Positions 33,635 through 62,981 of a stretch of DNA of 64,000 nucleotides are shown here, piece after piece (positions within the stretch are counted from its first letter, which is position 1; each line of letters opens with the position of its first letter). This stretch comes from Rhodobacter sp. SGA-6-6 (lineage in GTDB: Bacteria > Pseudomonadota > Alphaproteobacteria > Rhodobacterales > Rhodobacteraceae). Both the position numbers and the translations under genes were made by a program. Where the stretch lies: the NCBI RefSeq assembly GCF_011043545.1, contig NZ_JAAKGP010000007.1, positions 62,001 to 126,000 on the forward strand, given 5' to 3'. The notes under the pieces are model-generated. The model searched no databases and was not told where the DNA came from. It worked only from the letters and a program-made list of their open reading frames with translations.

Positions 33635-33845
33635 TGGCGAAGGCGCGTGCCTTCGCCATAGCGCACCGTTTCAATTGGGACCGGCCGGGCCTCAAAGGCC
33701 CGGCCAGCGCCCGCCCGCCCCTCGGCGGGCGCTTCTCGCCCGCCCGGGCGGGCGCTGGCCTCTCGGCGTTATGTGCCACTACCGTCTCTGTTTGATCCGC
33801 CGCGCACGGGCGGGGGCGAGGCAGTGCCTCGCCTGTTCCCGCCCC
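33635..33845 (-). repeat. 210-bp structured repeat, copy 1 (reverse orientation)
   Basis: It reads on the minus strand and has the four stem-loops of the family: GCGAGGCA/TGCCTCGC, the long GGCCAGCGCCCG/CGGGCGCTGGCC arm pair, GGCCGGGCC/GGCCCGGCC, and GGCGAAGGC/GCCTTCGCC. The stretch between the first and second stem-loops is the least conserved part. It fills most of the gap between the LivM-type gene and the dehydrogenase. It is the only copy in this orientation. Confidence 0.85.
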
Positions 33846-34000
33846 GGCCAAGCCGCGAGTCTTCCGCTGCTGCATATCACCCCCGGGGGGACCAAGATGA
33901 AATCCGCAACACATCCCCGACATTTCCTGTCGCAAATCTTCATGCCTTCCCTGCCCCGTCCCGCCATGGTGCCGAAAACGGAATGCAGGGAGTTCCCGGA

Positions 34001-36421
34001 ATGAAAAGCCATGCGCGTGTGGTGGTGATCGGCGGCGGCGTCGTCGGTTGCTCGGTCCTCTATCACCTAACCAAGCTCGGCTGGTCGGACGTGATGCTGA
34101 TCGAAAGGTCCGAGCTGACCTCGGGCTCCACCTGGCACGCGGCGGGCGGCTTCCACACCCTGAACGGCGACACCAACATGGCCGCCCTGCAGGGCTACAC
34201 CATCCGGCTGTATAAAGAGCTGGAAGAGATCACCGGCATGTCCTGCGGCCTCCACCACGTCGGCGGGGTGACGCTGGCCGACAACCAGGCGCGTTTCGAC
34301 CAACTGGTCGCCGAACGGGCCAAGCACCGCTACATGGGGCTGGACACCGAGATCGTCGGGCCCGAGGAAATCCGCAAGCTGACCGACGGGCTGGTCAATC
34401 TGGAGGGCATCATCGGCGGGCTCTACGACCCGCTGGACGGCCACCTCGACCCCTCGGGCACCACCCATGCCTATGCCAAGGCCGCGCGGATGGGCGGGGC
34501 CGAGATCGTGCTGCACAACCGGGTGCTGGAGACGCGGCCCACCAAAGACGGCTGGGAGGTCGTCACCGAGAAGGGCACCGTGACCTGCGAGCATCTGGTC
34601 AACGCCGGCGGCCTCTGGGCGCGCGAGATCGGGGCGATGGCGGGGGTCTACCTGCCCCTGCTGCCGATGGCGCACCAGTATCTGGTCACCGACGACATCC
34701 CGGAAATCATGGAGATCCTGAAATCCGGCCGCGAATTCCCCCATGTGATGGACCCCGGCGGCGAGTCCTACCTGCGGCAGGAAGGCCGCGGCCTCTGCAT
34801 CGGCTTCTACGAGAAGCCCTGCGAGCCGTGGAGCGTGGACGGCACCCCCTGGGACTTCGGCCATGAGCTGCTGAACGAGCAGTTCGACAAGATCGAGGAT
34901 TCGGTGAATTTCGCCTACCGCCGCTTCCCGGTGCTGGAACGCTCCGGCGTCAAGCGGGTGATCCACGGCCCCTTCACCTTCGCCCCCGACGGCAACCCGC
35001 TGGTCGGCCCGGTCCAGGGCCTGCGCAACTACTGGTCGGCCTGCGCGGTGATGGCGGGCTTCTCCCAAGGCGGCGGCATGGGCCTCGCGCTGGCGCAATG
35101 GATGGTCGAGGGCGAGGTCGAGCGCGATCCCCGCGGCTTCGACGTGTCGCGCTTCGGCACCTGGACCAGCCCGGGCTATACCGTGCCGAAGGTGATCGAG
35201 AACTACCAGATGCGCTTCTCGGTCAGCTACCCGAACGAGGAACGCCCCGCCGCCCGGCCGTTCCGGCAGACGCCGATGTATGACACCTTCGACGCCATGG
35301 GCGCGGTCTGGGGCCAGCAATACGGGCTGGAGGTGGTGAACTACTTCGCCCTGCCCGGCGAGCCGCGGCACGAGGCGCCGACCTTCAAGCGCTCCAACGC
35401 CTGGGAGGCGACGAAACAGGAGGTGCGGGCGCTGCGCGAGGGCGTCGGCATCAACGAATTGCAGAACTTCGGCAAGTATCTGGTCAAGGGGATCGGCGCC
35501 CGCGCCTGGCTGGACCGGATCATGGCCGGCCGCATCCCCAAGCCCGGGCGGCTGTCGCTGACCCCGATGCTGGCGCATTCCGGCAAGATCATCGGCGATT
35601 TCACCGTCTCCTGCCTCAGCGAGACCGAATTCCAGCTGACCGCCAGCTACGGCGCCCAAGGCTGGCACATGCGCTGGTTCGAGCAGAACGCAGGCCCGGG
35701 GGTGACGGTCGAGAACATCTCCGACAGCCGCACCGGCTTCACCATCGCCGGCCCCGGCGCGCGCGACCTGCTGGCGAAGGTCACCCGGTCGGATGTCTCG
35801 GCACAGGCGTTCCGCTTCATGGACGTGAAGCGGCTGACCGTCGGCATGGCCAATTGCATCGTCCAGCGCGTCAGCTACACCGCCGACCTGGGCTACGAGA
35901 TCTTCTGCGATGCGATGAGCGTGCAGCACCTGTGGAAGGTGCTGAACGAGGCCGGCAAGGACATGGGCCTGCGCGCCTTCGGGATGCGGGCCATGATGTC
36001 GCTGCGGCTGGACAAGTGGTTCGGCAGCTGGGGCCGCGAGTTCAGCCCGGACTACACCCCGATGGAAACCGGCCTCGACCGCTTCGTCGCCTGGAACAAG
36101 GCCGCCGACTGGATCGGCAAGGCCGCCGCGGTGGCAGAGAAGGCCAGCGGGCCGAAGCGGCGGCTGGTCTCCTTCGTGGTCGACGCCAAGGATGCCGACG
36201 TGGTGGCCTGGGAGCCGATCTGGCTGGACGGCGCGGTGGTCGGCTTCTGCACCTCGGGCGGCTTCAGCCATTGGACCGGCAAGTCGGTGGCGCAGGGCTT
36301 CCTGCCGGCGGAGGCCGTGAAGGACGGGCTGGAGTGCGAGATCGAGATCCTGGGCGAACGCCGCAAGGCCACCGTCCACCTGGCGCCGATCTGGGACGAC
36401 GGCGGCCGGATGCGCGACTGA
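34001..36421 (+). CDS. Dimethylglycine/sarcosine dehydrogenase-like FAD protein with GcvT domain
   Basis: An 806-residue flavoprotein. The N-terminal DAO-type FAD domain (VVVIGGGVVGCSVLYHLTK at residues 6-24; SGSTWHAAGGFHTLNGDTN, whose His is the usual site of covalent FAD attachment) is followed from about residue 430 by a folate-binding GcvT-like domain (FGKYLVKGIGARAWLDRIM, GYEIFCDAMSVQHLWKVL, GMRAMMSLRLDKWFG). Such enzymes demethylate dimethylglycine, sarcosine or related N-methyl compounds, passing the methyl to tetrahydrofolate. The ATG at 34001 follows AGGGAG. It stands alone between the transporter operon and a MobA-like gene. Exact substrate is unknown. Confidence 0.9.
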   Translation: MKSHARVVVIGGGVVGCSVLYHLTKLGWSDVMLIERSELTSGSTWHAAGGFHTLNGDTNMAALQGYTIRLYKELEEITGMSCGLHHVGGVTLADNQARFDQLVAERAKHRYMGLDTEIVGPEEIRKLTDGLVNLEGIIGGLYDPLDGHLDPSGTTHAYAKAARMGGAEIVLHNRVLETRPTKDGWEVVTEKGTVTCEHLVNAGGLWAREIGAMAGVYLPLLPMAHQYLVTDDIPEIMEILKSGREFPHVMDPGGESYLRQEGRGLCIGFYEKPCEPWSVDGTPWDFGHELLNEQFDKIEDSVNFAYRRFPVLERSGVKRVIHGPFTFAPDGNPLVGPVQGLRNYWSACAVMAGFSQGGGMGLALAQWMVEGEVERDPRGFDVSRFGTWTSPGYTVPKVIENYQMRFSVSYPNEERPAARPFRQTPMYDTFDAMGAVWGQQYGLEVVNYFALPGEPRHEAPTFKRSNAWEATKQEVRALREGVGINELQNFGKYLVKGIGARAWLDRIMAGRIPKPGRLSLTPMLAHSGKIIGDFTVSCLSETEFQLTASYGAQGWHMRWFEQNAGPGVTVENISDSRTGFTIAGPGARDLLAKVTRSDVSAQAFRFMDVKRLTVGMANCIVQRVSYTADLGYEIFCDAMSVQHLWKVLNEAGKDMGLRAFGMRAMMSLRLDKWFGSWGREFSPDYTPMETGLDRFVAWNKAADWIGKAAAVAEKASGPKRRLVSFVVDAKDADVVAWEPIWLDGAVVGFCTSGGFSHWTGKSVAQGFLPAEAVKDGLECEIEILGERRKATVHLAPIWDDGGRMRD

Positions 36422-36438: not shown

Positions 36439-37043
36439 TGTCTTCCGCCTCGATCCTGATCCTCGCCGCCGGAGCCTCCGCCCGGATGGGCGGGCGGGAC
36501 AAGCTGCTGGAGCCGGTGGCGGGCCGGCCGCTCTTGCGGCTGATGGCGGAACGCGCCCTCGCCACCGGCGCGCCGGTCCTCGTGGTGCTGCCGCCGGACC
36601 GGCCCGCACGGGCCGCGGCGCTGGCCGGTCTGGCGCTGCGGAGCATCATCGCGGAGGACGCGGCGGAGGGGATGGCGGCCAGCCTGCGGGCCGGGATCGC
36701 CGCCCTGCCCCCGGATGCGCCGGGGGCAATGATCCTGCCGGCCGACATGCCGGGGATCACCGCCGAGGACATGGCGCGGATGCTGGACCGATGGGCCGGG
36801 GCGCCGGACACGATCCTGCGCGGGGCCGATGAACAGGGACGGGAGGGCCACCCGGTGCTCTTCCCCGCCGACCTGTTCCCGGCGCTCATGGCGCTGACCG
36901 GCGACCGGGGCGCCCGCTCCGTGCTGGCAGCCAACCGCGCCCGGCTGCGGACCATCGCCCTGCCCGGCGACCATGCCCTGCTGGACATCGACACGCCGGA
37001 GGACTGGGCCGCCTTCCGGGCCGGGGAAGGCTCAGGCGGCTAG
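36438..37043 (+). CDS. MobA-like NTP transferase (molybdenum cofactor cytidylyl/guanylyltransferase type)
   Basis: A 201-residue nucleotidyltransferase of the NTP_transf_3 group. The nucleotide-binding motif [20 protein letters not shown] (residues 5-24) is at the very N-terminus, followed by [19 protein letters not shown] with the metal-binding Asp, and [17 protein letters not shown]. It resembles MocA-type enzymes that add CMP to molybdopterin for xanthine dehydrogenase-family proteins. The GTG at 36438 must be used, as the first ATG lies inside the binding motif. No Shine-Dalgarno is visible: the start abuts a palindrome, so reinitiation after the upstream stop is likely. The 3' end overlaps a convergent gene by 12 nt. 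Confidence 0.86.
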
Positions 37044-39461
37044 CAGCACCCGCGCCTCATGCGCCTTCAGCACCATCCGCGCCGCCGGGAAGGCGACGGC
37101 GGTTTGCTCCAGCTCGGGGAAAAGCGCCAGGATCTCGGCCTGCTGCGCCCGGTCCATGCCGCCGACCATCCGGCTGGCGGGCTGGAAGCTCTCGCTCCAG
37201 ATGCCGTCCGAGCACAGGATCTGATGCTGCTCGAACATGACATGGATATAGTCGATGCCGGGGCTCAGCTCCTGCCTTATGCCCATGCGGCCGCAGAGGT
37301 GGAGGGCGGCGACCAGCACCTCGGGCTCGCCGAACAGCATCTCGGCGCGCGGGCCCTCCAGCAGCAGGCGGTGCTGCGGCGAGACCCGCATGTCGCGGGC
37401 GGGCAGGCCCGGGCCGAAGGCGCCGGCCGGGATCAGCACCGGCCTCAGCGCCGGGTTCACCACCAGATGCGCGAGGCTCAGCCGCTTGCGGCCCACCCAG
37501 GCGACGCGCTGCATCCCGCCGTCGCGGGTGGCGACCAGATCGCCGACGCGCAGGGCCTCCACCCGCCGCTCGCCCCGCTCGGTCAGGATGCGGGTGCCGG
37601 GGGTGAAGCAGGGGATGATCGTCTCGATGTCGGTGAACTGCAGCGTGCCGATCACCGCGCCCATGCCGTCGAGGAACTCGACATAGCCGTTCTCGGGGTT
37701 CAGCGGGTCGCGGTAGATGTTGGTCAGCGCCCAGCCCCAGTCGGACAGGTCCAGCACGTCCTGGTCGGTGCCGGTGCTGCCGCCGTCGACGGTATCGCCG
37801 AGGCCGCCGTAGATGGTGTCCTGGTCGGCGCCGCCGTAGACCAGGCTGTTGCCGCCGCCGGTCAGCGCATCCCGCCCGGCCCCGCCGTAAAGCGTGTCGG
37901 TGCCGGTGCCGCCATACAGCACGTCGTCGCCGGTGCCGCCGTCCAGGCTGTCGTCGCCGGCGCCGCCGTAGAGGGTGTCGTCGCCATCCTCGCCGTAAAG
38001 CCGGTCGTTGCCCTCGTCGCCGTGCAGCACGTCGTTGCCGAGGCCGGACCAGACGGTGTCGTTGCCGAGGCCGCCGTAGACCAGATCGTTGCCGGACAGC
38101 AGGCTGCCGGTGATGTCGTCGATGGTGTCGTCGCCCGCCCCGCCGTAGACGGTATCGTCGCCATCGCCGAAGAAGAGCGAGTCGGCGCCGTCGGCGCCGT
38201 AGAGGATGTCGTTGCCCGCCCCGCCGTAGAGCAGGTCGTTCTCCGTTCCGCCATCCAGCAGGTCGTTGCCGTCGCCGCCCGTCAGCGTGTCGATCCCGGC
38301 GCCGCCGTAAAGCGCGTCGTTGCCGATGCCGCCGTCCAGACTGTCCGCGCCGTCGCCGCCGAGAAGGGTATCGTCGCCCGCCCCGCCGATAAGCTGGTCG
38401 TTCTCCGTCCCGCCGTCCAGCAGGTCGTTGCCGTCGCCGCCCGTCAGGGTGTCGATGCCCGCACCGCCGTAGAGCGCATCGTCGTCGGCGCCGCCGTCCA
38501 GACTGTCGGCGCCGTCGACGCCGAGAAGCGTGTCGTTGCCCGTCCCGCCGGCAAGCTGGTCGTTGCCGATACCGCCGTCCAGGCTGTCGGCCCCGGCGCC
38601 GCCCGTCAGGGTGTCGTTGCCGGCATCGCCGTAAAGCGTGTCGTCGCCGTCGCCGCCCTCCAGGCTGTCCTGCGCGGCCCCGCCGTAAAGCAGGTCGTTG
38701 CCGGCACCGCCGAACAGCCGGTCGTTGCCGTCCTCGCCATAAAGGGTGTCGTGCCCGGCCTCGCCCAGCAGGCTGTCGTTGCCGGTGCCGCCGTAGACGA
38801 GGTCGTTGCCGAGGCCCGCCTGAACCGTGTCGTTGCCCGCGCCGGCGCGGATGCTGTCGTCGTTCAGGCCTGAGGGGTTGATGCCGTCGTTGTTGTCGAT
38901 CCGGTCCGAGCCGTTGGCCACCGGCTCGACATAGGAGGCGTTGATCAGGTTGTTGCCGCTGGTGCCCTCGACCCAGCCGTCGTCCCAGCCGGTGGGCTGG
39001 CGGTCGGCGGCGAAGTTGGTGTTGGTCGAGGTCTCCACCCCGGTCAGGGTGATCGAGAGGATCGGCTTGGCCTCGAAGGCCGCGGTGTCGGCATTCGCCG
39101 TCATCTCGGGGGCGAGGAACAACTCGCCGGTGGTGGATTGCGCGATCACCGCCGTCACCGTGGCGGTGGTGCCGTCGGCATAGGTGATCGTCGCGTGATA
39201 GGCGGTCAGCGCGTCGAAGGTGTAGGTGGTGCCGCCCGAGGTGAACTGGTCGGGCAGAAACGCGCTGTTGTTCATGTCCAGATCGGCGGTGCCGCTCCGG
39301 TTGATCATCGTCGCGCTGGCGATGTGCCCGTAAAGCGGGTCGCCGGAGGACCCGTAGGTGTTCCCCACCAGGGCCGAGGCGTTCTCGGCGTTGGAATTGC
39401 CCTCGGTCGGGTCGATGGCAGGCCCGGTTCCGAGAAAGATCCAGTTGAAAGTCGTCGCCAT
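37032..39461 (-). CDS. RTX calcium-binding repeat protein with C-terminal Hint_2 domain (Hint-RTX 1)
   Basis: An 809-residue secreted protein. Residues 1-170 are an N-terminal domain I do not recognise ([20 protein letters not shown]). Residues about 185-590 hold dense RTX nonapeptides (GGAGNDTLLGG type), which bind calcium and fold outside the cell after type I secretion. Residues about 617-755 form a Hint_2 intein-like domain with the splicing Cys in [11 protein letters not shown] and the block with [10 protein letters not shown]. The tail ends [19 protein letters not shown] precedes the ATG. No T1SS genes are nearby. It is downstream of two paralogues and overlaps the MobA-like gene end. 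Confidence 0.9.
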
Positions 39462-39650
39462 GGCTCAGCCCTCCGCTTCCGCGCGGCGCGGCGGGGCCGG
39501 AGGCGGGAGACGGGTCCCTCCCAGGGCGATTCTCGGCAGTTCCGATACCATTGCGAGCCTTCGCGGAAAACTTTGCGATGACCCGGGATTAGTCGCCCGA
39601 CATGGCAGCATCGGGGCATGATTGGGGCTTGTTTCGGATCGGTAAACAAA

Positions 39651-39675
39651 CCGCAGCCCGGATTCCGGGCTGCGG
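39651..39675 (-). terminator. Intrinsic terminator after Hint-RTX 2
   Basis: CCGCAGCCCGG and CCGGGCTGCGG form a perfect 11-bp stem with a 3-nt loop, followed on the minus strand by TTTGTTTACC. It lies 27 nt after the stop of the 1949-residue gene and makes it a separate transcript from Hint-RTX 1. Confidence 0.82.
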
Positions 39676-39702
39676 CGGCAGGATCGTGGCGAAGACGTGG
39701 CG

Positions 39703-42700
39703 TCAGGCCGCGGTCAGCAGCAGCGCTTCGTGCTTCTTCAGGCTCAGCCTTGCGGCGGGGAACAAGAGGCCCAGCTTCAGGTCGGGGAACAGCGTCAGCA
39801 GTTCGCGGCGCAGGTCATCCTCCATCCCCGCCAGCGTCAGCGCGCCGGGCTGGTAGCTTTCCGACCAGGCACCGTTCGCCCGCACGATCTCATGCCGGTC
39901 GAAGAGGAGATGGATGTAGCCCACCCCATCCGCCGCATCCTCCTGCGCGATGCCGGGGCGGCCGGCCAGGTGGGTGGCGGCGACCAGCACCTCCTGCTCG
40001 CCGAACAGCAGTTCCGCGCGGCTGCCGGTGATCAGCATCCGGTGCTGCGGCGAGACCACCAGGTCGCGTTCCGGCAAGTTGAGGCCGAGCGCGCCCTTGC
40101 GGATGCGCACCGGGTTCAGCTGCGGCGCGGCGGCCAGCTCGTCGGCGGAAAGGTCGCGGCGGCCGATCCAGCGAATTTCCTGATAGCCGCTGTCGCGGGT
40201 CAGCACCCGGTCGCCCTCGCGCAGCTTCTCGACCCGGACCTCGCCGCGGTCGGTGGCGATCAGCGTGCCGGGGGTGAAGCAGGGCACGATGACATTCTCG
40301 ATGTTCGAGAACGACAGCGTGCCCACCACCGCGCCGCTGCCGTCGAGGAATTCGACGGTGCCGTTCTCGGGGTTGGCCGAGTCGTAGATGACGTTGACAT
40401 CGCCGAGGCCGGTCAGGTCCAGCGTGTCGTAATCGTCGCCGCCCTCGCCGCCGTCGATCACGTCGCCGATGCCGCCGAGGAACAGGTCGCGGTCGTCGCC
40501 GCCCTCCAGCGTGTCGGCCCCGCCGCCGCCGATCAGGGTGTCGTTGCCGGTGCCGCCGTAGACGATGTCGTCACCCGCCCCGGCCTCCACCAGGTCGTTG
40601 CCGCCCTCGGCAAGGATCAGGTCGTCGTCGCTGCCGTCGGCGGCGTCGCCCGCATCCACCCGGTCGCCCTCCGGGTCGCCGGTGTAGCCGGCGTCGATGA
40701 CATCGTCGCCCGCGCCGCCCTCGACCACATGGTCCGGCTGCTGGCCGTAGAGCACGCCGTCGACGTAGAGGTTCTCGATGTTGTAGAATTCCAGCGTGCC
40801 GCCGTCGTTGAAGAAGACGGTGCCGTTCTCCGGGTTGCCGGGGTCGAGACTGACCGAGGCGACATCCTCGACATAGAGGGTGTCGTCGTCCTCGCCGGTG
40901 GTGGTGCTTTCGTAGCCGTCGACATAATCGCCGGCGCCACCGTAGAAGGTGTCGGCATCCTCCTCGCCCAGCATGGTGTCGGCGCCCGCGCCGCCGATCA
41001 GGGTATCGGCGCCGTTCGAGCCCTGGATGAAGTCGTCGCCGTCGCCGCCGTAGACCAGGTCGTTCTCGCCCGATCCGGTGACGGTGTCGTTGCCCCCGCC
41101 GCCATAGACGGTGTCGTCGCCATAACCGCCGTAGACATGGTCGTGGCCGTCGCCGCCGTAGACCTCGTCATTGCCGGCGCCGCCATAGACCGAGTCGTCT
41201 CCTGCGCCGCCGTAGACGAAGTCGTTGCCGGCATCGCCGCGCAGGAAATCGTCGCCCTCGCCGCCGTAAAGCGTGTCGTCGTCCTCGTCGCCCTGGGCGT
41301 AGTCGTTGCCCGCGCCGGTCTCGATCAGGTCGTTGCCGGTGCCGCCATAGGCGCGGTCGTCGCCCTCCAGCGCATGGATGGCGTCGTTGCCGCCGAGGGC
41401 ATAGATCTCGTCGTCGTCCGAGCCGGGATTGGACAGGATGGCGTCGTTGTTGTCGATCACGTCGCCGTTGGCGTCGATATAGCCGGCGCCGATCAGGTCG
41501 CCGCCGCCGGTGCCCCAGATCAGCCCGTCCGGGGTGGCGCCCGCCAGCTGGATCTGCTCGATCCCGGTGAAGGCGACGGTGCTGCCGTCGCTGCGGGTGA
41601 CCACGCCGCTTTCGCCGTCCTCGCCATAGGCGATGCTGTCGATGCCGTCGACCACCAGGATGTCGAAATCGTCGCCGCCCTCGCCGCCGTCCACCGTGTC
41701 GGTGCCGGTGGCGTGGATCACGTCGCGGTCGTCGCCGCCTTCCAGCAGGTTGGCCCCGGCGCCGCCGTGCAGGGTGTCGTTGCCGCTGCCGCCGCGGACG
41801 GTGTCGTCGCCGTCGCCGGCCTGGACGCTGTCGGCGCCGTCGCCCGCCTCGATCACGTCGTCCGGCCCGTCGGAGCCGTCGATCACGTCGCCATTGGCGT
41901 CGGTATAGCCCGGCAGCATGGTGTCGGCGCCGGCGGTGCCCTGGACCACGCCGTCGCCGGTGCCGTGGCTGACGCCATCGACCACCAGCACCTCGATGTT
42001 CTGGAAGGTCAGGGTGGAGCCGTCGTTGAAGGTGACGGTGCCGGATTCGTTGTTGCCGCCGCCATAGACGAAAGAGGCGACATCGTTCACCACCAGCGTG
42101 TCGTGGTCGTCGCCCTCCTCGCCGCCGTCCACCACGTCGCCGCCGCCGCCGTGGATCAGGTCGCGGTCGCCGCCGCCGGACAGCACATCCGCGCCGTCGC
42201 CGCCGTCCAGCGTGTCGTTGCCGGCGTCGCCCGCAAGCGTGTCGTCGCCCGAGCCGCCGGCGATCAGGTCGTCGCCCGCGCCGCCCGACAGGCTGTCGGC
42301 ATCGTCGGGGATCACCTCCCAGGCCGGGGTGGTGTCGACGGAGAGTTCGTAGAAGACGCCGCCGGAATCGGAGGAGAGGTTCTCGACCGAGACCGAGGTC
42401 ATCGGGCCGTGGATCACCAGCACCGCGGGCTGGAACGGTCCCGGCGCATCGGCACCGGCGGCCAGGTGGCCATCGGCGTCGATGTAGTAGGAGGTGGTGC
42501 CGGAGGCGAATTCCACCAGCCCCAAGGCCATCGCCTGGTTCAGGTCCAGCGGCTGGCCGTCCACCCAGATCACCAGGGTCTCGGCGGTGTTCAGCCCGGT
42601 GAGCCGCAGCTGGACGCTGCCGACATCGGCCGAGAAGACATGGGTATGGGTCTCGTGCGGGGTGTCGCCGCCGCCCACCCGATAGCCGGCGGCAAGCTCG

Positions 42701-45552
42701 GTCCCGCCGTCCGCCAGCGCGAAGGTGCCGGTCTCCCCGGTCAGCGCGCCCTGGTCGGAACTGGCGGCATGGCCGAAATCGGGGTTGCCGCCGGTGCCGG
42801 CGACGGTGCCGGAGGCGCCGGTGACCAGGGCGAACTCGGGCGGCATCCAGTTGGGGGTCTGCAGGTCCTCGCCGCCGTGAAGCGTGTCGTTGCCCGCCCC
42901 GCCGAGAATCGTGTCCTGCCCCAGCCCGCCGTCGAGGCTGTCGTCGCCGCCGCCCGCCTCGATCAGGTCGTCGCCGTCGCCGCCCGACAGCGTGTCGTCG
43001 CCGTCGCCGGTGGTGATGCTGTCGTTGCCCGCGCCGCCCTCGGCCAGCGTCGCGCCGTCCAGGTCGATCAGGCTGTCGTCGCCCTCGCCGCCGTCCAGCG
43101 TGTCGGCCCCGGCCCCGCCGTAAAGCGTGTCCTCGCTGCCGCCGCCCAGCAGGCTGTCGTCGCCGGCGTCGCCCTGGATCAGGTCCTGATCGTCGCCGCC
43201 GTCGATGGTGTCGTGGCCTTCGCCGCCCGACAGGCTGTCGTTGCCCGAATTGCCGAAGAGATCATCGTCGCCCGCATCGCCGCTGGCGCTGTCGTCGCCG
43301 AAGCCCGCGTCGATCTGGTCGTTGCCCGCGCCGCCGGTGATGCTGTCGGCGCCGATGCCGCCGAAGATGACATCATCGCCCAGGCCGCCGTCGATGCTGT
43401 CGTCGTCGGCGAGATAGGCATCGGCCGGGTTGGTGTCGACCAGCAGCGAATAGATCGTGCCGTTGCCCATGCCGGTGGACGAAAGGTTCTGCACCGACAG
43501 GGTGGTGAAGGGTTGCAGAATGGTCAGCGTGGCGGGATCGGGCTCGGCGACCGGCGGCTGGGTGGCGGCCAGCGCGCCGCTGCCGTCGATGACGAAGCCG
43601 GTGCTGCCCGGGGTGAACTCGACCAGCCCGGCGGCGATGGCGTCGTTCAGGTCGATGGCCACGCCGTCCAGCCAGATCACCAGCGTCTCGGAGGGGTCGA
43701 TGGCAGCGATCACCAGCACCGCCCCCGCGACCTCCTGCCCGAAGCTGTGGGTGTGGGTCTCGTTGGCGTTGCTGCCGTTGCCGACATGGTAGCCGGTCAT
43801 CTCGCCGCCGCCCTCCAGCGCGACGGTCCAGCTGTCGACCGAGGCGCCGGTGGTGGCGACGCTGTGGTCGAAGTCGGCGTTGCCGTTGCTGCCGGTCAGG
43901 GTCTGGGTCAGGCCGGTGATCTCGGCATATTCCTGCCAGACGGTGTATTCGGCGCCGCCGCCGATGGTGTCGTCGCCCGCGCCGCCGATCAGCGTATCGG
44001 ACCCTCCGTTGCCCGACAGGTCGTCGTTGCCCTCGTCGCCCTCGATCCGGTCGTTGCCGGCCCCGCCGGCCAGCGTGTCGTCGCCATCGCCGCCGGAGAC
44101 CTGCACCCCGCCTTCGGTGGCGGTGGCGTCCAGATGGTCGTCCCCGCCGGTCAGGGTGACCGTCTCCATGCCGGTGAAGGTGCCGCCGCCGTCGCCCGAG
44201 ACGAAGCCGTAATCGCCCGCGCCGTCGCCGGTGAATTGCACCTCCACCCCCGTCTCGCCGGTGAAGACCAGCGAATCCGTGCCGGCCCCGCCGTGCAGCG
44301 CGTCCTCGCCCTCGCCTTCGCCGGTGACGAAGCTGTCGTCGCCGGTGCCGCCGTAGACGGTGTCGTCGCCCTGCCCGGCATGGATGGTGTCGTTGCCGCT
44401 ATAGCCGAAGATCAGGTCGGCCTCGCCGCCGGTCTGGTTGTCGGCATGGTCCACCCTGTCGCCGTCGGGATCGCCGGTATAGGCGCCGTCGATCACATCG
44501 CCCGCGGCGGTGCCCTGGACCACATAATCCGGCCCCGGGGCGGCGGTGGTGATGGTCAGATAGCCGGTGTCGACGTTCCCCGCCCCGTCCAGGATGGTAT
44601 AGGTCACCACGTTGGAGCCGATGTCGCCGTCGGCGGTGATGGTCAGCGTGCCGTCGGGGTTCAGCGTCACCTGCTCGCCGGTGGCCAGGGTCACGGTCTG
44701 GCCGGGCGCCACGTCCTGGCCCATGATCTCGGTGATGGTCAGGCCGGTGCCGGTCAGGTCGCGGTCGTTGGCCAGCACCTCGACCAGGCGGGTGGAATTG
44801 GCGGTCAGCTGCACCTCGTCGTCGAAGGCCAGCGCGATGGTCTGGATGCTGTCGCCCGAGATCAGCACGTTGGAATCATAGACCGCATCGCCGCCGTCGG
44901 CGATGCCGATCTTGATGGTGTTGACCTCACCCGCATTCACCGGCGCCTTGAAGGACAGCACATAGGTCAGCCCGTCCATCTCGGTGTTGAACTGGTCGGC
45001 GCCGTTGTCGCGGTAGAGGTTCTGGTTCGAGGCGGCGTTGACGTTGTCGATGGCGATGTTGCCGCTGGCGGTGACGGTGGCCTCGACGAATTCCCCGTTC
45101 ACCCAGACGCCGAAACTGTCGTTGACGTTGGAATTGACGTATTCGGGATATTCTTCCGAGGTGAAGACGAAGCGCATCGTCAGATAGTCGCCTTCGGGGA
45201 TGAAGCTGGCCTCGAAGATGGCGGCGTCGAAGGTCTGCTGGCCCGCGACCGCGTTCATAGCGGGGTCGCCGTCGATGCCGGCGGTGTCGGTGCCGGTGCC
45301 CTGGTTTATGTTGGTGTTGGTGGTGCCGGAACTGTTGGTGAAGTCGGCCGCGCGGCCGGTGGACAGGATCACGCCGCTGTCGCTGTCGGTGACGCCGGGG
45401 ATGGTGGAAAGCGCGCCGCTGTAGACCCCCGCCGCCCCGGCCGCGCCGGTGTAGCTGGCCGAGACGATCTGGATGCCGTCGCCGAAGATGGTTTCCGCCA
45501 TCTGCATGGCAGAGGCATTGGTGTCGATCGTCAACTCGTTCGCGATGGCCAT
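39703..45552 (-). CDS. Very large RTX protein with anchor-type N-terminus and Hint_2 domain (Hint-RTX 2)
   Basis: A 1949-residue secreted protein. Residues 10-250 match the choice-of-anchor L type domain (ETIFGDGIQIVSASYTGAAG, FTSEEYPEYVNSNVNDSFGV). A beta-rich Ig/cadherin-like segment follows to about 345 (LVEVLANDRDLTGTGLTI). RTX blocks fill about 350-1740, interrupted by two copies of a roughly 180-residue module (about 534-712 and 897-1084). The Hint_2 domain starts near 1756 (VPCFTPGTLIATDRG, SPQHRMLITG), and the tail is SLKKHEALLLTAA. GGAAGGG precedes the ATG. An adhesin or surface-layer role is likely; Hint would cleave or crosslink it. Confidence 0.9.
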   Translation of the reverse strand: MAIANELTIDTNASAMQMAETIFGDGIQIVSASYTGAAGAAGVYSGALSTIPGVTDSDSGVILSTGRAADFTNSSGTTNTNINQGTGTDTAGIDGDPAMNAVAGQQTFDAAIFEASFIPEGDYLTMRFVFTSEEYPEYVNSNVNDSFGVWVNGEFVEATVTASGNIAIDNVNAASNQNLYRDNGADQFNTEMDGLTYVLSFKAPVNAGEVNTIKIGIADGGDAVYDSNVLISGDSIQTIALAFDDEVQLTANSTRLVEVLANDRDLTGTGLTITEIMGQDVAPGQTVTLATGEQVTLNPDGTLTITADGDIGSNVVTYTILDGAGNVDTGYLTITTAAPGPDYVVQGTAAGDVIDGAYTGDPDGDRVDHADNQTGGEADLIFGYSGNDTIHAGQGDDTVYGGTGDDSFVTGEGEGEDALHGGAGTDSLVFTGETGVEVQFTGDGAGDYGFVSGDGGGTFTGMETVTLTGGDDHLDATATEGGVQVSGGDGDDTLAGGAGNDRIEGDEGNDDLSGNGGSDTLIGGAGDDTIGGGAEYTVWQEYAEITGLTQTLTGSNGNADFDHSVATTGASVDSWTVALEGGGEMTGYHVGNGSNANETHTHSFGQEVAGAVLVIAAIDPSETLVIWLDGVAIDLNDAIAAGLVEFTPGSTGFVIDGSGALAATQPPVAEPDPATLTILQPFTTLSVQNLSSTGMGNGTIYSLLVDTNPADAYLADDDSIDGGLGDDVIFGGIGADSITGGAGNDQIDAGFGDDSASGDAGDDDLFGNSGNDSLSGGEGHDTIDGGDDQDLIQGDAGDDSLLGGGSEDTLYGGAGADTLDGGEGDDSLIDLDGATLAEGGAGNDSITTGDGDDTLSGGDGDDLIEAGGGDDSLDGGLGQDTILGGAGNDTLHGGEDLQTPNWMPPEFALVTGASGTVAGTGGNPDFGHAASSDQGALTGETGTFALADGGTELAAGYRVGGGDTPHETHTHVFSADVGSVQLRLTGLNTAETLVIWVDGQPLDLNQAMALGLVEFASGTTSYYIDADGHLAAGADAPGPFQPAVLVIHGPMTSVSVENLSSDSGGVFYELSVDTTPAWEVIPDDADSLSGGAGDDLIAGGSGDDTLAGDAGNDTLDGGDGADVLSGGGDRDLIHGGGGDVVDGGEEGDDHDTLVVNDVASFVYGGGNNESGTVTFNDGSTLTFQNIEVLVVDGVSHGTGDGVVQGTAGADTMLPGYTDANGDVIDGSDGPDDVIEAGDGADSVQAGDGDDTVRGGSGNDTLHGGAGANLLEGGDDRDVIHATGTDTVDGGEGGDDFDILVVDGIDSIAYGEDGESGVVTRSDGSTVAFTGIEQIQLAGATPDGLIWGTGGGDLIGAGYIDANGDVIDNNDAILSNPGSDDDEIYALGGNDAIHALEGDDRAYGGTGNDLIETGAGNDYAQGDEDDDTLYGGEGDDFLRGDAGNDFVYGGAGDDSVYGGAGNDEVYGGDGHDHVYGGYGDDTVYGGGGNDTVTGSGENDLVYGGDGDDFIQGSNGADTLIGGAGADTMLGEEDADTFYGGAGDYVDGYESTTTGEDDDTLYVEDVASVSLDPGNPENGTVFFNDGGTLEFYNIENLYVDGVLYGQQPDHVVEGGAGDDVIDAGYTGDPEGDRVDAGDAADGSDDDLILAEGGNDLVEAGAGDDIVYGGTGNDTLIGGGGADTLEGGDDRDLFLGGIGDVIDGGEGGDDYDTLDLTGLGDVNVIYDSANPENGTVEFLDGSGAVVGTLSFSNIENVIVPCFTPGTLIATDRGEVRVEKLREGDRVLTRDSGYQEIRWIGRRDLSADELAAAPQLNPVRIRKGALGLNLPERDLVVSPQHRMLITGSRAELLFGEQEVLVAATHLAGRPGIAQEDAADGVGYIHLLFDRHEIVRANGAWSESYQPGALTLAGMEDDLRRELLTLFPDLKLGLLFPAARLSLKKHEALLLTAA
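42300..42860 (-). repeat. Second copy of a duplicated module inside Hint-RTX 2
   Basis: It encodes about residues 897-1084, starting near TPNWMPPEFALVTG. It shares with the first copy the order HETHTHVF, then ETLVIWVDGQPLDLN, then LGLVEFASGTTSYYID and VSVENLSSD. RTX repeats lie on both sides. Divergence between copies is substantial, so the duplication is old. Confidence 0.7.
43415..43950 (-). repeat. First copy of a duplicated module inside Hint-RTX 2
   Basis: It encodes about residues 534-712, starting near WQEYAEITGLTQTLTG. Landmarks are NETHTHSFGQEV, SETLVIWLDGVAIDLNDAI, AGLVEFTPGSTGFVID and LSVQNLSST, then YSLLVDTNPAD. It has no RTX nonapeptides itself. I do not recognise the domain. 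Confidence 0.7.
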
Positions 45553-45768
45553 TCGTTACCCTTCCGTCGATCCGCTTCCGCCGCAGGGGAAGCGGCGCAC
45601 CAGCCACGACCGCCCTGGCGGAATCTCCTCCTCCAGCGCGGTTTATCGGATCGAAGGGTTAAGCTTGCATTGCGGCGAAACCGCGGGGCGACCGTGGCGG
45701 CCCCGCGCGGAATTATGTCGAATGCACGGCATTTCATGCCGCCGGGCGGGGCGGGGCGGCGCAAATGA

Positions 45769-45795
45769 AAAGGGCCCCCGAGACGGAGGCCCTTT
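45769..45795 (-). terminator. Intrinsic terminator after Hint-RTX 3
   Basis: On the minus strand GGGCCTCCG and CGGGGGCCC form a stem with a TCT loop, flanked by AAA and TTT and followed by TTTTCATTTG. It is a textbook intrinsic terminator 54 nt after the Hint-RTX 3 stop, upstream of Hint-RTX 2. Confidence 0.85.
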
Positions 45796-45848
45796 CCCTT
45801 GCGACCGGAGTGCCTTGCAGGCGGACCCGGTCCGCGCTGCATAACCCG

Positions 45849-49570: not shown

Positions 49571-49779
49571 GGCGGGAAAAGGCGAGGCACTGCCTCGCCC
49601 CCGCCCGTGCGCGACATGTCAACCGGAGACCTGTCGGCACGAGACCCCGGAAGGCCAGCGCCCGACCGGGCGGGCGAGAAGCGCCCGCCGAGGGGCGGGC
49701 GGGCGCTGGCCGGGCCATTGAGGCCCGGCCGGGACAAGGTGCAGCCGTTGCGCCATGGCGAAGGCACGCGCCTTCGCCA
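49571..49779 (+). repeat. 210-bp structured repeat, copy 2
   Basis: It carries the four family stem-loops in order, opening with GCGAGGCA/TGCCTCGC and closing with GGCGAAGGC-ACGC-GCCTTCGCC. It begins 68 nt after the tRNA-Leu gene and ends before the convergent zinc peptidase gene. Confidence 0.87.
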
Positions 49780-50670: not shown

Positions 50671-50837
50671 CCCGGCACCCTTTCTCGACAGCGTTGGTGA
50701 CTTTGGGCCGCGGCCCGGATGGGGAAAGCCTAGCCCCTTGCCCGCCGCCCCGGAAGGGGGAGCTTTCACCATGGCGTGTCTTCCGCCTGCCGGGACCCGG
50801 CGCTATGGTCGCGCCGCAACGGCGAAGGATGGGCGAC

Positions 50838-51353: not shown

Positions 51354-51561
51354 GGGCGGGATCAGGCGAGGCACTGCCTCGCCCCGCCCGTGCGCGAGGG
51401 TTCGACCGGAGACTGTGGCAGCACGAAACCGGGAGAGGCCAGCGCCCGCCCGGGCGGGCGAGAAGCGCCCGCCGAGGGGCGGGCGGGCGCTGGCCGGGCC
51501 TTGGGGGCCCGGCCGGGAGGGTTGACAGGTTGCGCTATGGCGAAGGCGACGGCCTTCGCCA
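51354..51561 (+). repeat. 210-bp structured repeat, copy 3
   Basis: All four stem-loops are present: GCGAGGCA/TGCCTCGC, GGCCAGCGCCCG/CGGGCGCTGGCC, GGCCGGGCC/GGCCCGGCC, and a closing GGCGAAGGC/GCCTTCGCC with a different loop. It starts 46 nt after the dsbB-like gene. Confidence 0.87.
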
Positions 51562-52930: not shown

Positions 52931-53263
52931 ATGGAACTGACACTTCCCCCCCGCGTCACCGACCGCGCCTTCGCCCGGCTGGCCGAGATCGCCGACCTGA
53001 CCGGCGATGCCCGCCCGCTGCGGGTGGGCGTTTCGGGCGGCGGCTGCTCGGGGTTCCAATACGACATAAGGCTGGACGAGCCGGCCGCCGACGACATGGT
53101 GCTGGAGAAGGACGGGCAGAAGGTGCTGGTCGATCCGGTCTCGCTGCCCTTCCTGCAGAACGCGGTGATCGACTTCACCGACGAGCTGATCGGCGCCCGC
53201 TTCGTGGTGGAAAACCCCAACGCCAGCAGCTCCTGCGGCTGCGGCACCAGCTTCTCGATCTAG
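52931..53263 (+). CDS. erpA: Iron-sulfur cluster insertion protein ErpA / A-type carrier
   Basis: A 110-residue A-type Fe-S carrier. The three cluster-ligand cysteines are conserved: SGGGCSGFQYD (residue about 39), then SSCGCGTSFSI at the C-terminus (CxC). FTDELIGARFVVENPNA is the usual preceding segment. Such proteins deliver Fe-S clusters to apo-enzymes. ErpA rather than IscA is chosen because no isc or suf genes are near and the neighbouring dgt gene is a common partner; IscA cannot be excluded. The ATG at 52931 is the first in a sensible position. Confidence 0.88.
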   Translation: MELTLPPRVTDRAFARLAEIADLTGDARPLRVGVSGGGCSGFQYDIRLDEPAADDMVLEKDGQKVLVDPVSLPFLQNAVIDFTDELIGARFVVENPNASSSCGCGTSFSI

Positions 53264-53308
53264 GATCGGCATCCGGCACCGGAAGGGTTCTCGGCTTGGC
53301 CGGGTCTT

Positions 53309-53376
53309 GGCGGGGAGAACCCCGCCCTACGGGAACAGCCCGGCGAATCCGTCGTAGGGCGGGGTTCACCCCGCCA
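53309..53376. repeat. Double-hairpin repeat R2, copy A
   Basis: Hairpin one is GGCGGGG-AGAA-CCCCGCC and hairpin two is GGCGGGG-TTCA-CCCCGCC. The CCTACG and CGTAGG flanks make the two halves inverted copies of each other, so a large cruciform is also possible. It lies 45 nt after erpA and 15 nt before 210-bp repeat copy 4. Confidence 0.8.
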
Positions 53377-53391: not shown

Positions 53392-53604
53392 GGGCGGGAG
53401 AAGGCGAGGCACTGCCTCGCCCCCGCCCGTGCGCGACGGTAGCACCCGGAGACGCTGGCAGCCCAAGACCCCGGGAGGCCAGCGCCCGCCCGGGCGGGCG
53501 AGAAGCGCCCGCCGAGGGGCGGGCGGGCGCTGGCCGGGTGCTTGGGGCACCCGGCCGGGACAAGGGGAAGCGTTGCGCTGTGGCGAAGGCACGTGCCTTC
53601 GCCA
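53392..53604 (+). repeat. 210-bp structured repeat, copy 4
   Basis: It has the family stem-loops, but the third reads GGCCGGGTGC/GCACCCGGCC in place of GGCCGGGCC/GGCCCGGCC. Both strands of the stem have changed together and pairing is kept, which is evidence for selection on structure. It lies just downstream of R2 copy A. Confidence 0.88.
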
Positions 53605-53641: not shown

Positions 53642-54439
53642 TCACCCCCGCAGCCGGTCGGCGATGAAGCGGTAGTAGCTGCGCCCCGCGCCCTCGGCGA
53701 CGAAGGCGGCGTTCAGGGCGATCTTGGCGCGGAACACCTGCGCCGCCGCCCGCGCCATCTCCGGCGGCAGCATCGCATCGGCCTCCAGCCGGGCGACATG
53801 CTCCAGATAGGCGGCATGGACCCGGACCGGAAAATCCGCGGCCGCGGTCACCCCCTGCCCGTTCATCCGCAGCCGATAGGGCGCGGCCCCGACCGGCAGG
53901 CAGCCGCCCCTCTGCGCCATCACCTGCAACATGTGAAGCACGTCCTGCGACAGCGCCTCGACGAAGGGCGGGCAGAGGCGCCGCGCCACCAGCCCGCGGA
54001 CCGAGGCGCCGCTGGCCGCCAGATCGGCGAAGCCGAGCCGCCGCAGGTCCTGCCACAGCTGCAGGATCACCGCGCCGCCCTCCTCCACCTCCAGCGCCGA
54101 GACCGCCGCGCCCTCCGCCCGCGCCTTCGGCAGCAGCGCGGCCAGCCAGCCCGGCGCCAGCAGGTCGTCGGCGTCGAGGCAGGCGACAAACGCCCCCCGC
54201 GCCCGCGCCAGCGCCCGGTTGCGTGCCGCGCCGGTGCCCGAGCCGACGATCCCGGTCACCGCCACCTGCACCGAGGGCAGGCCCGCCACCATGGCGCAGT
54301 CGCTGCCGTCGTCCGATTCGACCAGCACCTCCAGCCGCTCGGCCGGAAGCCCGCCCCGCAGGGCGGACTCCACGGCATCCCGCAGCGTGGCCCCGGCCCG
54401 GTAGGCCGGGATCAGCACCGAGACCAGCGGCTCCATCAT
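53642..54439 (-). CDS. Family 2 glycosyltransferase
   Basis: A 265-residue GT-A fold glycosyltransferase. The N-terminus is the GT2 start (PLVSVLIPAYRAGATLRDAV), the nucleotide-sugar region includes VESDDGSDCAMVAGL, and the metal motif is ACLDADDLLAPGW (DxD-type). The C-terminal third is helical (MARAAAQVFRAKIALNAAF). Acceptor and sugar are unknown, and no polysaccharide genes are near. The start is one of two adjacent ATGs (54439 or 54436) downstream of GGGAGGGG; an in-frame ATG at 54451 is also possible. It is divergent from exonuclease III. Confidence 0.85.
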   Translation of the reverse strand: MMEPLVSVLIPAYRAGATLRDAVESALRGGLPAERLEVLVESDDGSDCAMVAGLPSVQVAVTGIVGSGTGAARNRALARARGAFVACLDADDLLAPGWLAALLPKARAEGAAVSALEVEEGGAVILQLWQDLRRLGFADLAASGASVRGLVARRLCPPFVEALSQDVLHMLQVMAQRGGCLPVGAAPYRLRMNGQGVTAAADFPVRVHAAYLEHVARLEADAMLPPEMARAAAQVFRAKIALNAAFVAEGAGRSYYRFIADRLRG

Positions 54440-57367: not shown

Positions 57368-57381
57368 GTTGCCCCGAAATG

Positions 57382-58054: not shown

Positions 58055-58894
58055 ATGAAATTCGCCTCCACCGATTCCTATGTCGCCGATGCCGCCCTTG
58101 CCGTGGCGGTGAACGCCGCCGTCACGCTGGAACGCCCGCTCCTGGTGAAGGGCGAGCCGGGGACGGGCAAGACCGAGCTGGCGCGGCAGGTCGCCGCTTC
58201 GCTGGGCCTGCCCTTCCTGGAGTGGAACGTGAAGTCCACCACCAAGGCGCAGCAGGGCCTCTATGAATATGACGCCGTGTCCCGCCTGCGCGACAGCCAG
58301 CTGGGCGAGGCCCGGGTCCACGACGTGGCCAACTACATCCGCAAGGGCAAGCTCTGGCAGGCCTTCGAGGCGCCGGGCCGGGTGGTGCTGCTGATCGACG
58401 AGATCGACAAGGCCGACATCGAGTTTCCCAACGACCTGCTGCAGGAACTGGACCGGATGGAATTCCACGTCTACGAGACCGGCGAGACGGTGAAAGCCCT
58501 GCACCGTCCGGTGGTCATCATCACCTCGAACAACGAGAAGGAGTTGCCCGACGCCTTCCTGCGCCGCTGCTTCTTCCACTACATCCGCTTCCCCGACCCC
58601 GAGGTGCTGGCCGCCATCGTCCGCCTGCATTTCCCCGGCATCAAGGAGAAGCTGCTGGCCACCGCGCTGGCGCAGTTCTTCGAGATCCGCGAGACGCCGG
58701 GGCTGAAGAAGAAGCCCTCCACCAGCGAGGTGCTGGACTGGCTGAAGCTGATCCTGGCCGAGGATCTGTCGCCCGAGGACCTGCGGCGGGATGCGAAGGA
58801 CGCCCTGCCCCGGCTGCACGGCGCGCTGCTGAAGAACGAGCAGGACGTGCAGCTGTTCGAGCGGCTGGCCTTCCTGGCCCGCGGGCAGCGGTAG
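58055..58894 (+). CDS. MoxR family AAA+ ATPase
   Basis: A 279-residue AAA+ ATPase of the MoxR group. Walker A is LLVKGEPGTGKTELARQVA (residues about 29-47), Walker B is VVLLIDEIDKADIEFPNDLL, sensor 1 is VVIITSNNEKELPDAFLRRC, which includes the arginine finger, and the C-terminal lid is helical. These ATPases work with VWA-domain partners to remodel or load metal into target complexes. The likely partner is the VWA gene at 61546-62727, which is separated by a repeat, a lipoprotein and a small membrane protein gene. The ATG at 58055 gives the standard MKFASTDSYV start. Confidence 0.92.
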   Translation: MKFASTDSYVADAALAVAVNAAVTLERPLLVKGEPGTGKTELARQVAASLGLPFLEWNVKSTTKAQQGLYEYDAVSRLRDSQLGEARVHDVANYIRKGKLWQAFEAPGRVVLLIDEIDKADIEFPNDLLQELDRMEFHVYETGETVKALHRPVVIITSNNEKELPDAFLRRCFFHYIRFPDPEVLAAIVRLHFPGIKEKLLATALAQFFEIRETPGLKKKPSTSEVLDWLKLILAEDLSPEDLRRDAKDALPRLHGALLKNEQDVQLFERLAFLARGQR

Positions 58895-58924: not shown

Positions 58925-59134
58925 GGGCGGAAAAGGCGAGGCATTGCCTCGCCCCCCGCCCGTGCGAACGGGTTCGCCCGGAAACGCTGGCAGCCCTGAA
59001 CCCGGAGAGGCCAGCGCCCGACCCGGCGGGCGAGAAGCGCCCGCCGGGGGCGGGGCGGGCGCTGGCCGGGCCTTTGGGGCCCGGCCGGTCTAGGCTGAAC
59101 CGTTGCGCCGTGGCGAAGGCACACGCCTTCGCCA
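58925..59134 (+). repeat. 210-bp structured repeat, copy 5
   Basis: It has the four family stem-loops; the first has T instead of C in the centre (GCGAGGCATTGCCTCGC). The long second arm pair is slightly rearranged, as in copy 6. It starts 30 nt after the MoxR gene. Confidence 0.86.
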
Positions 59135-61329: not shown

Positions 61330-61370
61330 GGCCCGCCCCCTTCCCCGGCCGGCCGAAAGGGGATGAAGCG

Positions 61371-61535: not shown

Positions 61536-61545
61536 GGGCCGGGGC

Positions 61546-62727
61546 ATGTTCCTGCCCTTTCTCGACCATCTGCGGCGCGAAGGCGTGCCGGTCTCCCTGC
61601 GCGAGTTCCTCACCTTCCTGCAGGCGCTGGAGGCCGGGCTGGCCACCCATGACGTCGAGGGATTCTACCACCTCGCCCGCACCGCCATGGTCAAGGACGA
61701 ACGCCATCTCGACCGTTTCGACCGCGCCTTCGCCGCCGCCTTCAAGGGGCTGGAGTCGCTCACCGCCGAGGACGTGCTGCAGGCGCTGGACCTGCCGGCC
61801 GACTGGCTGGCGAAGCTGGCCGAGAAGCACCTGACCGAGGAGGAACGCGCCGCGGTGCAGGCACTCGGCGGTTTCGACAAGCTGATGGAGGCGCTGAAGC
61901 AGCGGCTGGATGAGCAGAAGGGCCGCCACCAGGGCGGCAACAAGTGGATCGGCACCACCGGCACCTCGCCCTTCGGCGCCTATGGCTACAACCCGGAAGG
62001 GGTGAGGATCGGGCAGGAGGAAAGCCGCCACCGCCGCGCGGTGAAGGTCTGGGACCGGCGCGAGTTTCGCAACCTCGACGACCGGGTGGAGATCGGCACC
62101 CGCAACATCAAGGTCGCGCTCCGGGCGCTCCGCCGGTGGGCCCGCGACGGCGCGGCGGAGGAGCTGGACCTCGACGGCACCATCCGCGCCACCGCCGAGC
62201 ACGGCTGGCTGGACGTGCAGACCCGGCCCGAGCGGCGCAATGCGGTGAAGGTTCTCCTGTTCCTCGACGTCGGCGGCAGCATGGACCCGCATGTCAGGGT
62301 GATGGAGGAGCTGTTCTCGGCGGCGAAATCCGAATTCCGCCATCTGCAGCCGTTCTACTTCCACAACTGCCTCTATGAGGGGGTCTGGCGCGACAACGCC
62401 CGGCGGTGGAGCGCGCAGGTTCCGACCTGGGACGTGCTGCGCAGCCATGGCCCGGACTGGAAGGCGATCTTCGTCGGCGACGCGGCGATGAGCCCTTACG
62501 AGATCACCCATCCCGGCGGGGCCAACGAGCACTGGAACAAGGAGGCCGGGCAGGTCTGGCTCACGCGCGCCGCGGAGCAATGGCCCGGACATCTCTGGAT
62601 CAACCCGGTGCCGGAGAGCGGCTGGGGCTACAGTCCATCCACCGCGATGATCGCGCGCCTCTTCGGCGGCCGGATGGTGCCGATGACGGTGGAAGGGATC
62701 GCGCGCGGGGTGAAGCTGCTGCGGTGA
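61546..62727 (+). CDS. CoxE-like VWA domain-containing protein
   Basis: A 393-residue protein of the CoxE/YeaD-like VWA group that partners with MoxR ATPases. The N-terminal half is helical (FLPFLDHLRREGVPVSLREF; EEERAAVQALGGFDKLMEAL). The VWA domain carries a MIDAS-like DVGGSMDPH (DxGxS), with the later Asp in AIFVGDAAMSP. HPGGANEHWNKEAGQVW and GWGYSPSTAMIARLFGGRM are conserved in this group. It starts 10 nt after the small membrane protein gene. Its MoxR partner is most likely the gene at 58055-58894. Confidence 0.9.
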   Translation: MFLPFLDHLRREGVPVSLREFLTFLQALEAGLATHDVEGFYHLARTAMVKDERHLDRFDRAFAAAFKGLESLTAEDVLQALDLPADWLAKLAEKHLTEEERAAVQALGGFDKLMEALKQRLDEQKGRHQGGNKWIGTTGTSPFGAYGYNPEGVRIGQEESRHRRAVKVWDRREFRNLDDRVEIGTRNIKVALRALRRWARDGAAEELDLDGTIRATAEHGWLDVQTRPERRNAVKVLLFLDVGGSMDPHVRVMEELFSAAKSEFRHLQPFYFHNCLYEGVWRDNARRWSAQVPTWDVLRSHGPDWKAIFVGDAAMSPYEITHPGGANEHWNKEAGQVWLTRAAEQWPGHLWINPVPESGWGYSPSTAMIARLFGGRMVPMTVEGIARGVKLLR

Positions 62728-62772
62728 GGGGGTGCCCTTGGCCGTGGCATCGGGATTCTCCGCGGCCTGTTC

Positions 62773-62981
62773 GGGCGGGAGAAGGCGAGGCACTGCCTCG
62801 CCCCCGCCCGTGCGGATGGGCTCACCCGGAGACGGCAGTCACGAGAACCCCGAGAGGCCAGCGCCCGACCCGGCGGGCGAGAAGCGCCCGCCGAGGGCGG
62901 GGCGGGCGCTGGCCGGGCCATTGAGGCCCGGCCGGTCTGGTTGCAACCGTTGCATCGTGGCGAAGGCGATGGCCTTCGCCA
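62773..62981 (+). repeat. 210-bp structured repeat, copy 6
   Basis: All four stem-loops are present, with the closing GGCGAAGGC/GCCTTCGCC pair around a different loop from copies 1 and 2. It shares with copy 5 the variant form of the second arm. It lies 45 nt after the VWA gene stop. Confidence 0.87.

Follow-up and report, generated by a model that had tools for sequence, protein, structure and literature searches.

The stretch analysed here is a 64-kb window of Rhodobacter sp. SGA-6-6 (NZ_JAAKGP010000007.1, positions 62,001 to 126,000), and between its genes lie six copies of an element of about 210 bp that comprises four hairpins. A sequence-only reading of the window had proposed these copies, and all six were found where it had placed them (Table 1). 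They score 161-190 bits with a covariance model that was itself built in part from copies 1 and 6, and the central hairpin has 6 matches in the window against 0.02 expected in shuffled sequence. The copies fall between called genes, and a protein-coding element was rejected on this ground, as judged from the listing of open reading frames (ORFs) only.

Four-hairpin copies in the window and the genome

Read in the plus orientation, hairpin 1 is followed by a spacer of ~45 nt, hairpin 2, an overlapping hairpin 3, a further ~25 nt and hairpin 4. The fixed order of the four hairpins stands as first described; the second has to be redrawn as a nested double hairpin of the plan Y-Y'-Y-Y', whose final GGCC doubles as the first arm of hairpin 3. 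Part of the outer pairs of hairpin 1 is broken in copy 5 in the alignment used. The two-sided change noticed in hairpin 3 of copy 4 recurs in the genome: one pair of this hairpin is changed on both sides in 10 of 59 aligned copies. The shared orientation of five of the six copies and a density near the window end of one per ~3 kb (5 copies in 13.4 kb) were likewise borne out, copy 1 being the one on the minus strand. A position downstream of a plus-strand gene, also claimed, applies to copies 3-6 and, after a tRNA gene, to copy 2; in a larger sample orientation showed no tie to the upstream gene.

Table 1 Features of the four-hairpin element and its surroundings in the window
Feature	Position	Strand	Remarks
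Copy 1, full four-hairpin core	33635..33844	-	between plus-strand genes 32307-33611 and 34019-36421
Copy 2	49571..49779	+	between tRNA-Leu (49419-49502 +) and gene 49813-50670 (-); empty in relative L120
Copy 3	51354..51561	+	between convergent genes 50829-51308 (+) and 51624-52820 (-); empty in relatives
Copy 4	53392..53604	+	between convergent genes 52931-53263 (+) and 53642-54439 (-); hairpin 3 of type GGGTGC/GCACCC
Copy 5	58925..59134	+	downstream of gene 58055-58894 (+); empty in relatives
Copy 6	62773..62981	+	downstream of gene 61546-62727 (+); empty in relatives
Hairpin 1 of copy 6	62773..62809	+	composite: outside GGGCGGG/CCCGCCC, inside GGCGAGGC/GCCTCGCC
Hairpin 2 of copy 6	62856..62914	+	nested double hairpin with 12 bp outside and 8 bp inside
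Hairpin 3 of copy 6	62911..62933	+	first GGCC doubles as end of hairpin 2
Hairpin 4 of copy 6	62958..62981	+	arms TGGCGAAGGC/GCCTTCGCCA
Possible decayed left terminus of copy 4 (TAGGATCGGCATCC...)	53261..53278	+	overlaps TAG stop of gene 52931-53263; by inspection
GTAG-headed palindrome, inverted pair	53308..53376 (approximate)		between possible left terminus and hairpin 1 of copy 4
GTAG-headed palindrome, inverted pair	62996..63058 (approximate)		just 3' of copy 6

Across the 67 contigs of the genome (4.29 Mb) there are 193 core matches with at most 3 mismatches, 109 forward and 84 reverse, which amounts to a mean of about one per 22 kb; a control pattern had none in the same sequence. The places of 100 of the 193 were listed individually. 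A sample of 464 kb was assembled from the window and 20 stretches of 20 kb, most of them placed at known copies and all of them searched throughout. It contains 50 full-length model hits, which score 138-194 bits, the next-best hit reaching 28 bits, and no truncated or decayed copy. Every copy of this genome that was listed or sampled is a single unit, and none stands in tandem.

Paired stems and drifting spacers

Covariation in a larger alignment is pronounced. When 38 copies from 13 Rhodobacteraceae genomes were aligned to the model, 96.8% of the cells pair; two-sided changes affect 24 of 49 pairs (shuffles 11.3, slid structures no more than 12) and 148 cells (shuffles 43), in an alignment that was fitted to the structure and so leans towards it, the same changes being visible by eye in a plain alignment. 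Copy 6 folds far more stably than its shuffles both as RNA (z -6.3) and as single-stranded DNA (z -7.4), and the centre of hairpin 4, GGCGATGGCC, is conserved in most of the aligned genera.

These observations favour one of the readings first offered, a structured RNA, that is, a 3' untranslated region (UTR) or small RNA with a single direction of transcription and under selection for its RNA fold. The mismatches speak less clearly. Within SGA-6-6, G.U is about as frequent as A.C (16 vs 12, p=0.57), so the structure need not be that of an RNA. In two cross-species sets G.U does outnumber A.C (34 vs 14, p=0.006; 99 vs 62, p=0.004), in counts that derive from model-fitted alignments favouring G.U and include changes repeated by ancestry. 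We read this as no clear RNA signal in SGA-6-6 and a possible one across species. Moreover, copies between tandem genes are antisense in 18 cases and sense in 9 (p=0.12), so that no fixed transcript direction is apparent; as the flanks inspected also show no T-run after hairpin 4, a sense 3' UTR or terminator tied to the upstream gene is not supported. Although its covariation holds, we consider the structured RNA an unlikely account of the element.

The most striking trait is the near-perfect state of the stems in copies whose remaining sequence has diverged widely; this suggests that the hairpins are still important. Our comparison covers 87 distinct copies of the ~193 (90 model hits, with three duplicated loci merged). 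The mean minor frequency is 0.47% in paired and 20.5% in unpaired columns, and two copies differ on average by 1.5% in paired and by 30.8% in unpaired sequence, indels counted in the latter. Even the closest pair stands 13.5% apart in unpaired sequence, and the median distance to a nearest neighbour is 18.3%, in a set where some copies were picked by similarity and nearest neighbours should be closer rather than further. With no close sibling among the copies compared, a recent burst of copying did not occur. Singleton changes agree in direction, numbering 21 across 102 paired and 54 across 113 unpaired columns in a set of 59 copies; as 30 of these are best matches to copy 2, conclusions rest on the 87-copy set instead. 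Either the stems were kept by selection in place or all copies were made with variation confined to their unpaired parts, and of the two we favour selection.

Gene ends and strand orientation

All 50 sampled copies are intergenic, and most of them lie at the 3' ends of genes, whose positions were taken from a purpose-made codon-usage caller. Convergent gaps are enriched, making up 18 of the 50 gaps with a copy against 45 of 377 (p=5e-5), and divergent ones show no significant depletion (5 of 50 vs 60 of 377, p=0.40). Of 63 stop codons that face a copy, 26 are TAG, compared with 51 of 362 elsewhere (p=3e-6), an excess that would fit a terminus beginning with TAG. Where a convergent gap holds a copy, other hairpins are less common (10 of 18 vs 25 of 29, p=0.04, uncorrected among several tests). 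For the TTTTCG-CGAAAA hairpin that is usual in this genome there was no significant difference in either convergent (1/18 vs 6/29) or tandem gaps (0/27 vs 6/133).

Short hairpins of the form GATTTTCGnCGAAAATC recur between genes at window positions 13870, 24723, 30154, 36418 and 56155 and are possibly the usual terminator of the lineage. Elsewhere in the window, three large minus-strand genes at 37032-48626 (~810, 1950 and 926 aa) are full of 27-bp repeats and look, from the repeat pattern alone, like RTX-type repeat proteins.

Copies on one contig tend to point the same way: of the 100 listed places, 82 are on the majority strand of their contig, against 63.5 in permutations, none of 20,000 of which reached 82. 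Copies also prefer the strand of negative GC skew when 20-kb surroundings are considered (35 of 50, p=0.007), less so with 3-kb surroundings (34 of 55, p=0.10). In a single-contig genome of another genus (G015), with halves of opposite skew, 11 of 14 copies follow the skew (p=0.06). The bias is absent from another genome, G038 (6 of 14), and from two large metagenome-assembled genomes (MAGs) of Rhodobacter (19 of 42 and 11 of 22, at loci of at most 8 kb), and orientation as a family-wide rule was rejected on these counts. The data support a skew-linked bias in SGA-6-6 that is no rule of the family.

Modular relatives and the origin of the family

The covariance model, searched in this genome and its relatives as had been proposed, recovers the family in both. 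It detects members in 23 of 120 genomes, SGA-6-6 included, which is a lower bound with 20 candidates scored per genome; the core pattern is present in 6 of 194 genomes, again with SGA-6-6. Among 12 other genomes of the same genus, ten have no core match and the remaining two have 1 and 3. A scan of named genomes yielded 75 stretches, the carriers being three Rhodobacter sp. MAGs (JADCDI, JADCEF and JADCEL), Fuscovulum blasticum DSM 2131, MAGs of Gemmobacter, Phaeovulum and Pseudorhodobacter, and two others. Amplification is uneven, with 123 matches to the hairpin-3 pattern in JADCDI, 72 in JADCEF, 55 in Gemmobacter and 19 in SGA-6-6. Stem sequences are near-uniform within SGA-6-6 and differ between genomes; one genome (G011), in which the model recovers three full copies and a weak partial hit, has one copy with SGA-6-6 stems and two with others. 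In G015, the inner loop of hairpin 2 is far longer, and the copies read retain both the Y-Y'-Y-Y' arrangement and the overlap with hairpin 3. Two further loci deserve mention: one element (L117, in G057), with the motif ACCTCTGCAT on either side of it, contains a long insert within the inner loop of its hairpin 2, and a diverged relative (L061, in G097) adjoins another intergenic repeat that reads GTCATTGCGAGG.

A modular organisation is met in the three Rhodobacter MAGs, which have regions in common at ~92-96% identity. Here the unit is often repeated head to tail with a period of ~240 bp, and the gaps between tandem units measure 29-33 nt in 72 of 81 cases. In 13 of 16 cases a recognisable terminus, CAGG(C/G)TGCTGAAA, begins 74-79 nt ahead of the first hairpin, and in 11 of 13 its inverse ends 81-85 nt past the last hairpin. 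Discrete elements with one unit and with two were read directly, one element (L229) has no hairpins 2 and 3, and an orthologous site with both flanks present holds arrays of 3 and of 2 units (L153/L159). In SGA-6-6, the clearer cases have sequences like TAGGGCGGATCGGCATTC at ~44 nt ahead of hairpin 1 or at 23-42 nt beyond hairpin 4; with up to 5 mismatches allowed, the motif is present in 14 of 118 flanks against 0.5 expected, a count that is not independent, the motif having been derived from the same flanks.

For copies 2, 3, 5 and 6 of the window, at least one syntenic relative (~72-84% identity) has an empty site, and a covariance-model search of 12 syntenic loci gave a single weak hit (19.6 bits, E 0.03). 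Comparison with relatives had been proposed as a check for empty sites and target-site duplications; it furnished the former at these four places and, in elements of one MAG inspected by eye, no consistent case of the latter.

Searches for a name or a carrier brought little. Over the whole window Rfam has only the tRNA-Leu, and for copy 6 only weak sub-threshold matches at E up to 5; phages have no match, and IMG/VR none to two patterns. In plasmids the only match was to hairpin 2, in two Leisingera plasmids, with none to the MAG unit or to either end module. Spread by phages or plasmids was rejected accordingly. No named repeat family in the literature searches matched, and as no published name was found we regard the family as undescribed. 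With covariation present and no named family matched, neither of the refutations set out with the first reading came about. Integron attC sites, group II introns and IS110 bridge RNAs were also considered and not adopted. Mobilisation of the IS200/IS605 or REP-associated tyrosine transposase (RAYT) kind was also set aside: PF01797, the Y1 transposase domain, occurs in 0 of 21 genomes, mostly drafts and including SGA-6-6, and in 5 of 14 control genomes, with the limit that a more divergent enzyme could escape. As a candidate parent insertion sequence (IS), one pair of termini 2.5 kb apart was scanned; it carries a peptidase/helix-turn-helix gene and no Pfam transposase in the four ORFs scanned. 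A wider pair, L235, spans 3.9 kb.

The element resembles the BOX elements of Streptococcus pneumoniae and S. suis, which one study presents as short, structured, high-copy repeats, with end modules around a number of tandem central modules that varies between genomes (PMC3049150). The same study describes for S. suis one central module flanked by different end modules, and SGA-6-6 and the MAGs likewise share a core and differ in their ends (PMC3049150). The tandem units and terminal inverted repeats are found in the sister MAGs, whereas the copies listed or sampled in SGA-6-6 are single units with decayed ends. The likeness claimed is one of architecture. The central unit of the Rhodobacteraceae, which belong to another phylum, measures 240 bp, is GC-rich and holds four hairpins. 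boxB is far shorter. A further difference is that no consistent target duplication or matching IS was found for the Rhodobacteraceae element, whose copies in SGA-6-6 are old and intact.

A second comparison is with the GTAG repetitive extragenic palindromes (REPs), palindromes of 20-40 bp linked to RAYT transposases; many of them lie downstream of genes and their stems are family-specific, as in the present family (PMC3733652). GTAG REPs themselves are present in SGA-6-6, often beside the four-hairpin element, whose core consists of four other palindromes; they are separate neighbours, and PF01797 was not found here as noted above. These REPs, reading GTAGGGCGGGGTTCACCCCGCC, also stand beside copy 5 and are common, with 133 half-sites (at most 1 mismatch) in the 464-kb sample, although the genome yielded no PF01797 gene. 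Gaps that hold an element are enriched in them (13 of 45 vs 5 of 162); in 12 of 59 copies a half-site follows hairpin 4 at a distance of 27-31 nt. A third comparison is with miniature inverted-repeat transposable elements (MITEs), which the four-hairpin element resembles in its structured sequence without a plausible gene and in the inverted termini of the MAG copies. It departs from them in its tandem internal units and in the absence of decayed copies from the SGA-6-6 sample, and neither a parent IS nor a consistent target duplication was found.

Of the three readings first offered, which also included a nucleoid or gyrase-binding repeat, the non-autonomous mobile element is the best supported. 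On balance, the evidence tips towards a BOX-like, modular, non-autonomous mobile element of the Rhodobacteraceae whose hairpins are now kept by selection, with a likely role at gene ends. We infer spread by a mover from the uneven amplification, the empty sites, the modular ends and the tandem units. The core, in this account, would be the 210-bp four-hairpin unit with a linker of ~30 bp, set between end modules with inverted-repeat termini. It would have spread by insertion beside gene 3' ends through an enzyme, and this machinery would probably recognise folded or cruciform DNA. In SGA-6-6 spreading would have ended long ago, given unpaired drift of ~30% and near-perfect palindromes in the copies examined. 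The hairpins would since have been held by selection in place, most likely for work at gene ends such as stopping transcription from either side. The data themselves establish the architecture, the covariation and the positions and, for the sample, the intact state of the copies and the lack of near-identical ones; mobility, selection and a function at gene ends are our interpretation.

Several observations weigh against this explanation. The search for a transposase or a parent IS with matching termini was negative, and inspection by eye of seven bounded elements in one MAG, one of which (L233) has a 4-nt direct repeat at its ends, revealed no consistent target-site duplication. No close empty site was found: the syntenic relatives are too diverged and the MAG loci compared show no gap pattern; the site of L232 was common to both sister MAGs and the flanks of L228 were not found. 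The MAG termini have 0 hits in the 464 kb of SGA-6-6, whose decayed ends are unlike those of the MAGs. Partial and degenerate units do occur in the MAGs, so that intactness is a trait of SGA-6-6. Stems are near-identical in sequence beyond what pairing needs, and selection for pairing alone would not demand this. The gene-end role is weakly suggested by position and by the scarcity of other hairpins in convergent gaps; in tandem gaps they are not rarer (15 of 27 with a copy vs 60 of 133).

A still-active selfish miniature element, intact through rapid turnover and with copying errors outside the stems because integration needs them, would account for the uneven copy numbers among related genomes, for tandem arrays and end modules, and for stems that are near-uniform in SGA-6-6 and different elsewhere. 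Active elements usually leave pairs of near-identical copies, and the closest pair seen here is far from that. As truncated or decayed copies are missing from the sample as well, and an error-prone copying step without direct support would be required, we think continued activity quite improbable. Sites at which a chromosome-organising or replication protein binds, aligned with the direction of the replication fork, would fit the coherent and skew-linked orientation in SGA-6-6 and G015 and the near-uniform palindromes, but are the least probable explanation, as the skew test is weak at 3 kb (34 vs 21), the bias is missing in G038 (6 vs 8) and in the MAGs (19 vs 23 and 11 vs 11), the stems differ between species, and the absence of the core from most genomes of the genus speaks against a core function.

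Returning to the BOX-like element, we tentatively consider a further step, namely domestication throughout the genome: ~190 gene-end copies under DNA-level selection on their four palindromes, in register with the direction of the fork and with stems re-set in each species. Bacterial intergenic repeats are usually taken as decaying selfish DNA. If true, domestication would make this family a large set of domesticated bacterial repeats that share one common function. The 50 full-length copies, the 87 without a close sibling and their diverged spacers point either to a lasting function or to an unusual copying process. Across many Rhodobacteraceae, with the same core and different ends, the family offers natural variants of one four-hairpin architecture.

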